DNA of 64,000 nt. Origin: Acidimicrobiia bacterium (lineage in GTDB: Bacteria; Actinomycetota; Acidimicrobiia; Spongiisociales; UBA5794). This document shows positions 29,481 to 32,840 of this stretch, one piece after another. Position 1 is the first letter of the stretch. Every line of letters begins with the position of its first letter. The stretch spans positions 1 to 64,000 of the forward strand of contig DASWKR010000002.1 in the NCBI GenBank assembly GCA_036396535.1, written 5' to 3'. The position numbers and the translations under genes are program-made. Under the pieces are notes generated by a model that was given only the letters and a program-made list of their open reading frames with translations, made no database searches and had not been told where the DNA came from.

Positions 29481-30278
29481 TCACGGGCTCCAGGCATGGA
29501 ACCGTGAGTCCTCGCGCCGCATCTCGAGCCTGATGCCGAAAGCGTCGGAGAGCGCCTCCGTCGTGAGCGTCTCGTCGAGCGGCCCCGCCGAGACCACGGC
29601 TCCCGACGAGATGATGGCGACGTGTGAGAAGCCGGGAGGGATCTCTTCGACGTGGTGTGTCACCAGCACGCACGCCGGGCTCGCCTGGTCGCTGGCCATT
29701 GCGCCGAGCGACGCGACGAGGTGTTCCCTGGCTCCCAGGTCGAGGCCCGTGGTCGCTTCATCGAGAAGCAGGAGCTCCGGCTTCGTCATGAGGCTCCTGG
29801 CGATGAGTACGCGTTGCTTCTCGCCGGCTGAGAGGGTCCCGAACGTCCTGTCGGCGAGGTGCCCCGCCTCGAGCCGGTCCAGGTTCGCCCGCGCGCTGTC
29901 CCAATCGTCCGGCCGGTACTCGTGCCAGCGGGTGTCGACGAAGGCGGCGTGCTTGCCGGTGATGACGATCTCGATGGCGGGGAGCGTCACCCGTACCAGG
30001 GCGGCCGGGCCGGCCCCCGAGTACCCGACCCTCCTTCGAAGCTCACGAACATCGAAGGCGCCCCGCGCCTTCCCGAGCAGGCGAACGGTGCCCCGCGTCG
30101 GCGCCAGGTACATCGAGGCGACCTGCAGCATCGTCGTCTTGCCTGCGCCGTTCGGTCCGAGCACCACCCACCGATCGTGCGCCGCCACCCTCCAGTCGAC
30201 ATCGCGCAACAGGTGCCTGCCCTCGCGCACCACCGAGACGCCTTCGAGGGCGATGATCTCGGCGGGGTCATCCGGCAT
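29481..30278 (-). CDS. ABC transporter ATP-binding protein (orphan)
   Basis: A 265-residue ATPase. Walker A GPNGAGKTT near residues 40-48, signature LSAGEKQRVLIARSL near 149-163, Walker B LLLLDEATTGLD near 171-182, H-loop VLVTHHVEEIPPG near 209-221. It resembles YlmA/ModF-type ATPases that stand without a permease. None is adjacent here. ATG at 30278 is chosen because homology (IIALEGVSVVREGRHLLRD) begins there. Confidence 0.85.
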   Translation of the reverse strand: MPDDPAEIIALEGVSVVREGRHLLRDVDWRVAAHDRWVVLGPNGAGKTTMLQVASMYLAPTRGTVRLLGKARGAFDVRELRRRVGYSGAGPAALVRVTLPAIEIVITGKHAAFVDTRWHEYRPDDWDSARANLDRLEAGHLADRTFGTLSAGEKQRVLIARSLMTKPELLLLDEATTGLDLGAREHLVASLGAMASDQASPACVLVTHHVEEIPPGFSHVAIISSGAVVSAGPLDETLTTEALSDAFGIRLEMRREDSRFHAWSP

Positions 30279-30323
30279 GGGGCAGAAAGCTACTCGACTG
30301 GCCGGAGAGGCCATACTGTCCGC

Positions 30324-30851
30324 ATGACCCGCTTCACGTCCCCGATCCGTCCCGAGCCGCTGGCGGTCGGCGACCTCGCTCCTGATTGGCACCTGCGCCA
30401 CACGTTCGACGACTCGGTGTCGCTGGAACGGCTGTGCGAGAGCGGCCCCGTCGTTCTCGCCTTCTACGTCTTCGACTTCGGCGAGATATGAAGCCACGAG
30501 CTGTCCCAGTTGGGGGCACTCGCACCTGAGATCCGCGCCGCCGGGGCAGACATCGCTGCCATCGCCGTGACCGCGACGTTCTCACAGATGGCGTTCGCCA
30601 AGACGCTCCCGCTCGATTTCCCGCTGCTCTCCGACTGGGACGGCGAGGTGTGTGGCGCATACGGCGTGCGATACGAGATCTGGAAGGGCCACCGCGGCCT
30701 GGCGAAGCGATCTCTGTTCGTCGTGGACGAGGACCGGGTGGTTCGCTACGTCTGGTCGGAGGAGAACGCGCTCGAATTGCCCGACTTCGGGCCCGTCGTC
30801 GAGGCAGTCTCGTCGTTGCAGAAGGGCGACTCCCGGTCGTCGTCCTCGTGA
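30324..30851 (+). CDS. Selenocysteine-containing peroxiredoxin (AhpC/TSA family), in-frame TGA at codon 56
   Basis: A 175-residue thioredoxin-fold peroxidase read through an in-frame TGA at 30489-30491. Before it: DLAPDWHLRHTF and the core strand VVLAFYVFDFGEI. After it, in the same frame: SHELSQLGALAPEIRAAGAD, then FPLLSDWDGEVCGAYGVR and RSLFVVDEDRVVRYVW, all standard peroxiredoxin segments. The TGA falls exactly where the peroxidatic cysteine stands (FYPxxFTxxC-T/S-x-EL), at residue 56, a normal position. A SECIS-like hairpin follows (separate entry). The protein should reduce H2O2 or organic peroxides using thioredoxin or a similar donor. The usual Thr three residues before the active site is Gly. 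A further Cys in DGEVCGAYG could resolve. A single nonsense mutation is the main alternative. Start ATG at 30324. Confidence 0.82.
30498..30521 (+). promoter_or_regulatory. Bacterial SECIS-like hairpin for selenocysteine insertion
   Basis: The six-pair upper stem UGUCCC / GGGGCA (30502-30507 with 30513-30518, one G-U pair) closes the five-base loop AGUUG (30508-30512). GAG/CUC extends it below a single bulged C. The loop starts 16 bases after the TGA and has G in its second position. This meets the published bSECIS rules: loop 16-37 bases downstream and a G among its first two bases. Confidence 0.75.
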
Positions 30852-30875: not shown

Positions 30876-32840
30876 ATGCCGATCGAGCCGAAACGCGACG
30901 ACCCAGTGTTCGACGTCGCAGACATGGATCTCACGACGAGCCCGGGCGACGACTTCTACCGGTACGCCAACGGCGGATGGATGGCCGCCAACCCCGTCCC
31001 ATCGGACCACTCTCGGTGGGCGGCGTTCGACGAGGTCCGCAAGGCGAACGAGGACATGCTCCACGAGTTGCTGCAAGCGGCCGCCGCCGGCGACGAGCCG
31101 TCCATCGATGGGCGCGTTGCGGCCTACTACCGGGCCGGGATGGACACTGAGCAGATCGAGCGCCACGGGCTGGCGCCGCTCGCCGAGCACTTGGCCGCCA
31201 TCGATGCCATCGAGGACGTCGCCGGTCTGCGCTCGGTCGCCGCCCGGCTGGCCGAGGTCGGCGTGAGTCTGCCCATCGACGCCGGCGTGCTGCCGGACTT
31301 CGACGACAGCACCACCCACCTCCTCTACCTCGACCAGGGCGGCCTCGGCCTTCCGGAGCGGGACTACTACTTCAGGGAGGACGAGCAGTCCTCCCTGCTG
31401 CGCAAGCAATACGTCCAGCACGTCGCGGCCATGCTCGAGCTCGGCGGGCACCCCGACCCGGGAGACTCCGCCGCGGCGATCCTCGACCTCGAGACGGCGC
31501 TCGCCGAGCCTTCGTACACGAACACCCAGCAACGCAACATGGATCTCGTCCTCAACCGGTTCGCAGCCACCGATCTCGAAGCGCTCATGCCGCGCTTTGG
31601 GCTCCCGGCGTTCCTCGACAGCGTCGGAGTCACCGGGATCGAGGCGGTCAACGTCGGCAACCCGGGGTTCTTCGGAGAGGTCGACGAGATCCTCACGAGC
31701 GCATCCGTCGAGACCCTGAGGGCCTACGCCACCTGGCACCTGCTCTCGGCAGCGGCGTCCTCGCTTCCGAAACGCTTCGAGGACGAGTCGTTCGACTTCT
31801 ACGGACGCATCCTCGGCGGCCAGCAGGAGCAAAAGGAGAGGTGGAAGAGGGTCCTGCGGGCCGCCACGGCCGAGATCGGCGAGCTGGTGGGCAAGGTGTA
31901 CGTGGCACACGCCTTCGGTCCCGAAGCCAAGGAGAGAGCTCAGCAGATGGTCGCCAACATCATCGAGGCCATGGCGGGTGCCATCCGCTCCCTCGAGTGG
32001 ATGGGGGACGAGACCAAGGTGGCGGCACTCGCCAAGCTCGACGGATTCTCGGCGAAGCTCGGGTATCCCGACGTGTGGCGGGACTACACGGCCCTCTCCT
32101 TCTCCGGGGGGCCGTGGGTGACGCTTCGCCTCGACGCCAAGAGCTTCGAGTTCCGGAGGCGGCTCGGTCAACTCCACGAGCCGGTCGACCCGAACGAGTG
32201 GTCGATGGCCCCCCACGAGGTCAACGCCTACTACCACCCCCTGCGCAACGAGATCGTCTTCCCGGCAGGCATCCTCCAGCCACCCTTCTTCGACGCCACG
32301 GCAGACGATCCGATCAACTACGGCGGCATCGGGGCGGTGATCGGCCACGAGATCACCCACGGCTTCGACGACATGGGGAGCCGATTCGACGCCTCAGGCA
32401 ACTTCGCCAACTGGTGGAGCGAGGAGGACAGGGCCGAGTTCGAGCGGCGAGCCGACGTGCTCGTCGACCAATACGACGGGTACCGCGTCGTCGGCGACCT
32501 GCCGGTCAACGGCCGCCTCACGCTGGGAGAGAACATCGCAGACCTCGGAGGCCTCACGATCGCCTTCGAAGCCCTGCGTGTGGCGATCGGCGACATGGTC
32601 GGCCCTCTCATCGGCCGGCTCACGCCCGCACAGCGGTTCTTCCTGTCGTTCGCCAGGGTGTGGCGCTCGAACGAGACGGACGAGTACCTACGACTCAACG
32701 TCCAAACCGATCCCCACTCACCGCCGATGTTCCGATGCAACGGGGCGCTCGGGAACCTCGACGAGTTCGCCCGAGCCTTCGATCTGGACGACGACGACCC
32801 CATGATGCGGGCACCGAACGTGCGCGCCAAGGTCTGGTGA
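30876..32840 (+). CDS. M13-family zinc metallopeptidase (neprilysin/PepO-like)
   Basis: A 654-residue endopeptidase. The N-terminal M13 domain (about 10-400) opens with DLTTSPGDDFYRYANGGWM. The catalytic domain has NAYYHPLRNEIVFPAGILQ near 451-469, the zinc motif GHEITHGFDD near 489-498, and the third-ligand motif ENIADLGG near 551-558. The C-terminus ends VRAKVW, the family's usual hydrophobic Trp ending. No signal peptide is visible, so it is probably cytoplasmic, as in lactic-acid-bacterial PepO. It degrades medium-size peptides. It starts 24 bases after the selenoprotein gene on the same strand. Confidence 0.94.
   Translation: MPIEPKRDDPVFDVADMDLTTSPGDDFYRYANGGWMAANPVPSDHSRWAAFDEVRKANEDMLHELLQAAAAGDEPSIDGRVAAYYRAGMDTEQIERHGLAPLAEHLAAIDAIEDVAGLRSVAARLAEVGVSLPIDAGVLPDFDDSTTHLLYLDQGGLGLPERDYYFREDEQSSLLRKQYVQHVAAMLELGGHPDPGDSAAAILDLETALAEPSYTNTQQRNMDLVLNRFAATDLEALMPRFGLPAFLDSVGVTGIEAVNVGNPGFFGEVDEILTSASVETLRAYATWHLLSAAASSLPKRFEDESFDFYGRILGGQQEQKERWKRVLRAATAEIGELVGKVYVAHAFGPEAKERAQQMVANIIEAMAGAIRSLEWMGDETKVAALAKLDGFSAKLGYPDVWRDYTALSFSGGPWVTLRLDAKSFEFRRRLGQLHEPVDPNEWSMAPHEVNAYYHPLRNEIVFPAGILQPPFFDATADDPINYGGIGAVIGHEITHGFDDMGSRFDASGNFANWWSEEDRAEFERRADVLVDQYDGYRVVGDLPVNGRLTLGENIADLGGLTIAFEALRVAIGDMVGPLIGRLTPAQRFFLSFARVWRSNETDEYLRLNVQTDPHSPPMFRCNGALGNLDEFARAFDLDDDDPMMRAPNVRAKVW

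Follow-up and report, generated by a model that had tools for sequence, protein, structure and literature searches.

Peroxiredoxins as a whole carry the sequence Pxxx(T/S)xxC, described as their "definitive" motif in a survey of the superfamily, together with a distant arginine (PMC5302317). In the selenocysteine-containing forms the reactive residue is selenocysteine (Sec, U), and a 2026 review gives these as Sec-Prx, with TxxU, and Prx-SUH, with CxxU; no GxxU peroxiredoxin is among the forms listed there (PMC13188914). According to the same review, the bacterial Sec insertion element (bSECIS) has a loop of 3-9 nt on a stem of 4-16 bp, a G in one of the first two loop positions, and a distance of 16-37 nt between UGA and loop (PMC13188914). 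The replacement of the catalytic Cys by Sec is already established, and the gene described here is of interest for a missing motif and an apparently Sec-only distribution.

Several described systems lie close to this gene, which is found in a 64,000-nucleotide stretch of Acidimicrobiia DNA (the window). The PrxU type (Eubacterium acidaminophilum; NF040737) is likewise an AhpC/TSA protein with a peroxidatic Sec, and represents the best NCBIfam match of the window protein, although the score of 40.3 bits falls below the cut-off of 270. The selenoprotein thiol peroxidase Prx-SUH (NF045827) is only weakly similar, scoring 15.3 bits where the cut-off is 298, and differs in having CxxU where the window protein and its orthologues have GxxU. 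The window protein stays below the cut-off of every NCBIfam equivalog. The peroxiredoxin-like thiol:disulfide oxidoreductase selenoproteins, or UxxC proteins, are also AhpC/TSA-like with an in-frame TGA, but their Sec lies three residues ahead of the Cys that aligns with the Sec of the window protein. Three peroxiredoxin-like loci (L031, L032 and L033, from Acidobacteriota and an Eremiobacterota bin), whose TGA lies within RGxW-U-PxC, resemble this known UxxC group. The closest solved sequences and folds, at about 31-33% identity, belong to the AhpE/BcpB/PrxQ group (M. tuberculosis Rv2238c; archaeal Bcp4). Within this group, AhpE is an actinobacterial enzyme of the one-Cys type.

The gene and its clade

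The reading frame runs from an ATG at 30324, through an in-frame TGA, to a terminal TGA at 30849-30851 (see table). When read through it encodes a protein of 175 residues, of which the 56th is Sec (MTRF...FYVFDFGEI-U-SHELSQLG...), and this product belongs to Pfam AhpC-TSA (PF00578; 2.3e-24). Among solved chains the product is most similar in sequence to archaeal Bcp/PrxQ and to mycobacterial BcpB and AhpE, and codon 56 falls on the peroxidatic Cys of the solved enzymes. An AlphaFold2 model, built from a five-sequence alignment with Cys in place of Sec (pLDDT 86.2, pTM 0.84), groups in Foldseek with Bcp4, PrxQ, Prx1, and AhpE, the best match being 3hjp (E 1.1e-14). The predicted fold is that of a peroxiredoxin, and the model says nothing about catalysis. 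By eye, the neighbouring genes are a divergent ABC-transporter ATPase upstream (29481-30497) and, downstream on the + strand (30876-32840), a long open reading frame resembling an M13-type metallopeptidase.

Features of the Sec-peroxiredoxin gene in window coordinates
Feature	Position	Strand	Evidence
Sec-peroxiredoxin CDS	30324..30851	+	Read-through translation; Pfam AhpC-TSA, 86.1 bits; 12 orthologues aligned full length
UGA read as Sec, peroxidatic position (very likely)	30489..30491	+	TGA in 13/13 of clade, TGC/TGT in Cys homologues; Sec machinery in genome
Codons V49-F50-D51-F52-G53, site of Pxxx(T/S) in other peroxiredoxins	30468..30482	+	V(-7) and G(-3) in 13/13
Putative bSECIS apical stem-loop, UGUCCC / loop AGUUG / GGGGCA	30502..30518	+	Loop fixed 16 nt past UGA; stem covariation across 13 genes
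Extended hairpin, lower stem CGAG/CUCG, one bulged C	30497..30522	+	RNA folding; lower stem not conserved in relatives
Arg129 codon, AKR segment	30708..30710	+	Aligned with AKR of solved PrxQ structures; Arg role from PMC5302317

A first survey of 99 genomes of relatives (E <= 1e-20) gave seven genomes with a match besides that of the window itself, all with TGA. Further scans of 395 genomes of the class, 138 of the order and 397 of the phylum, which partly overlap, together with searches of genome contigs, brought the clade to 13 members, namely the window gene and 12 orthologues of about 50-63% identity in other genomes of Actinomycetota, one of them named as an uncultured Acidimicrobiales bacterium. 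These form a single clade in a maximum-likelihood tree (support 100/99), and bit scores fall from 225 to about 110 just outside it. The first-pass annotation had placed an in-frame TGA at the peroxidatic Cys of a peroxiredoxin; its coordinates are right, and the alignments to solved chains and to Cys homologues agree with it. The comparison of homologues that it had proposed gives TGA at codon 56 in every clade member, a conservation far beyond chance, and Cys (TGC or TGT) in more distant homologues. A Cys member of the clade was not encountered in over 700 genomes scanned, and the clade is apparently a small, Sec-only branch. Within the window's own family the gene is found in only this genome of about 50, and its distribution is therefore patchy, as loss or transfer would explain. 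A separate peroxiredoxin match, G711:C9:205-654, has one internal TAG rather than TGA.

An altered active site

The motif of the clade is VxxxGxxU in all 13 members, and Pxxx(T/S)xxC/U is found in none. In contrast, the known Sec-peroxiredoxins are PxxxTxxU proteins (PMC13188914), and the AhpE/BcpB/PrxQ group keeps Cys, Pro, and Thr/Ser where the clade has Sec and neither of the other two. The initial proposal of a selenoprotein peroxiredoxin is supported by the conservation of TGA and by the machinery and hairpin described below, but the protein is no ordinary PxxxTxxU enzyme, since Pro and Thr/Ser are replaced clade-wide. Nothing relevant on this clade or on peroxiredoxins with GxxU turned up in literature searches that covered mainly openly accessible papers.

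The distant arginine is retained, in that Arg129 is invariant in an eight-member alignment and aligns with the catalytic Arg of solved enzymes. No Cys accompanies the Sec in ten of the 13 proteins, and position +5, which is Cys in L020 and L041 (both Cys homologues), is never Cys in the clade. As most members have no other Cys, the protein would be a one-Sec enzyme that requires an external reductant. L020, a paralogue in the same genome, was considered as a further TGA gene and rejected, as its TGA is a normal stop and it encodes an ordinary Cys-peroxiredoxin.

Outside the clade, the closest Sec-containing relatives, from other Actinomycetota (L047, L049, L052, and L057), have SxxU and no Pro at -7, whereas the Cys homologues examined keep both Pro(-7) and Thr/Ser(-3). 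This suggests that the loss of Pro preceded that of Thr/Ser, with the four SxxU proteins as possible intermediates; the branch that joins the clade to the SxxU groups is weak (84/84).

Because Pxxx(T/S)xxC is absent, peroxidase activity is less certain than the insertion of Sec. The protein may be a selenoprotein of peroxiredoxin fold whose main role is not that of a peroxidase, with a selenolate that acts on some other substrate, for instance in thiol-disulfide exchange. The loss in all 13 members of both motif residues, which are said to activate peroxide (PMC5302317), speaks for this, as do weak matches of clade members to SelL-related and deiodinase-related families. However, the catalytic Arg and the fold are kept, a second conserved Cys for disulfide exchange is lacking, and the better family matches are all peroxidases except one (ResA). 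We consider such a function unlikely, although it is the most probable of the alternatives. The clade is, with good probability, a 1-Sec peroxiredoxin subfamily with peroxidase function and an external thiol reductant. The more specific proposal, that this Sec-only VFD[F/Y]GxxU subfamily has dispensed with both defining residues and that its selenolate uses a different chemistry of peroxide activation or a different substrate, is tentative, with a little less than an even chance of being correct.

Decoding of the UGA

The genome is a draft in 94 contigs, about 96% complete. The search for selA, selB, selC, and selD that had been recommended with the initial description found all four, with tRNA-Sec, SelA, SelB, and SelD above their curated cut-offs. 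A single match to tRNA-Sec (selC) exceeds the cut-off, at 72.7 bits, and ARAGORN independently calls a tRNA-Sec with anticodon TCA. The selB gene (327.8 bits when joined, 293.6 for the main piece) directly adjoins selA (418 bits) on contig C22. The selD gene (393.5 bits; G000:C35:175508-176434, L018) has an in-frame TGA of its own, read as SHGAGUACKL, and the selenophosphate synthetase of this genome is probably also a selenoprotein. A match to the formate dehydrogenase alpha subunit, at 630.5 bits just below the cut-off, likewise contains one internal TGA (G000:C48:15153-17012, L063). Given tRNA-Sec, selA, selB, selD, and the TGA-bearing selD and formate dehydrogenase match, it is very probable that UGA is decoded as Sec in this organism. 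Although selA is present in all 12 clade genomes tested, it is also frequent in related genomes that are without the Sec-peroxiredoxin gene, so that its co-occurrence is necessary rather than diagnostic. One further genome (G482; 97% completeness) has a TGA-containing peroxiredoxin yet no selA match.

Near-cognate tRNAs can read through UGA, and the codon might in principle be decoded by such non-specific read-through, or by reassignment to Trp, rather than as Sec. This we regard as highly improbable, as the codon stands for Cys and not Trp, both this gene and the peroxiredoxin paralogues of the genome terminate at TGA, and the Sec system of the genome is complete.

The first-pass annotation had also described a SECIS hairpin downstream of the UGA, and its sequence, its 16-base spacing and the G at the second loop position are as claimed. 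With a loop of 5 nt and a stem of 6 bp, the hairpin satisfies the published bSECIS rules (PMC13188914), and in RNA folding the apical stem is extended by four base pairs below it. As lone evidence, however, this element is weak. It does not stand out significantly from shuffled sequences (z = -0.7), 24% of synonymous recodings (483 of 2000) reach its energy, and an Rfam search of the locus matched no family. The force of the SECIS claim therefore comes from comparison of the orthologues.

In all 13 genes the loop starts at +16 after the UGA and opens with AGUU, and the stem varies with its pairing retained. Counting from the loop, the third pair is C-G or T-A, the fourth T-G, T-A, G-C, A-T, or C-G, and the fifth G-C, G-T, or C-G. 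For nine of the 13 genes, the observed hairpin energy is attained by under 4% of recodings. The Leu codon of the loop is TTG in all 10 genes that have Leu there, while TTG makes up 9.8% of the Leu codons in the rest of these genes; as the clade sequences are related, these hairpin and codon counts do not represent independent events. Nothing comparable folds in the Cys homologues, whose best hairpin reaches -3.8 kcal/mol, compared with -7.5 or lower in the clade. Taken across the 13 genes, the sequence comparison makes a strong and convincing case for a bSECIS element.

The coding sequence on the far side of the TGA appears to be translated as well. Identity to the window protein is similar upstream and downstream of it in 12 comparisons, and the substitutions summed over these at codon positions 1/2/3 are 134/122/321 before the TGA and 411/297/704 after it. 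This excess at third positions on both sides is the pattern of a translated frame, under purifying selection throughout. A pseudogene or sequencing error, with the TGA either a true nonsense mutation or a misread TGC/TGT, is scarcely credible, since, although TGA is one base away from either codon and the genome is a draft in many contigs, the same TGA in 12 separate orthologues already refutes it, and both the downstream conservation and the hairpin persist. On this strong computational evidence, the locus is almost certainly a genuine selenoprotein gene, and insertion of Sec at the UGA is very likely.

Proposed mechanism and meaning

SelB bound to the apical hairpin would deliver Sec-tRNA(Sec) at the UGA, and the ribosome would then read on to the terminal stop. 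In the mature protein Sec56 would replace the peroxidatic Cys; its selenolate would attack the peroxide, assisted by Arg129, and become a selenenic acid, which an external thiol or a thioredoxin-type partner would reduce. Normally, Pro and Thr/Ser hold the thiolate and the peroxide in position and activate them; here, where Val and Gly stand instead, the higher reactivity of the selenolate may have made these residues less necessary. With respect to the reductant, the gene neighbourhood offers no candidate that is adjacent across families, and genes are shared only among close relatives; as the neighbours are not conserved across families, mycothiol/mycoredoxin or thioredoxin is only a guess.

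In the Sec-peroxiredoxins listed by the 2026 review, the third residue ahead of Sec is still Thr, or else Cys (PMC13188914). Ordinary gene calling would end the genes of the present clade at codon 55, and they would escape searches based on TxxU, so that the branch is easily overlooked. A clade that is conserved, apparently Sec-only and devoid of the motif's Pro and Thr/Ser poses the question of whether selenium removes the need for the classical peroxide-activating residues.
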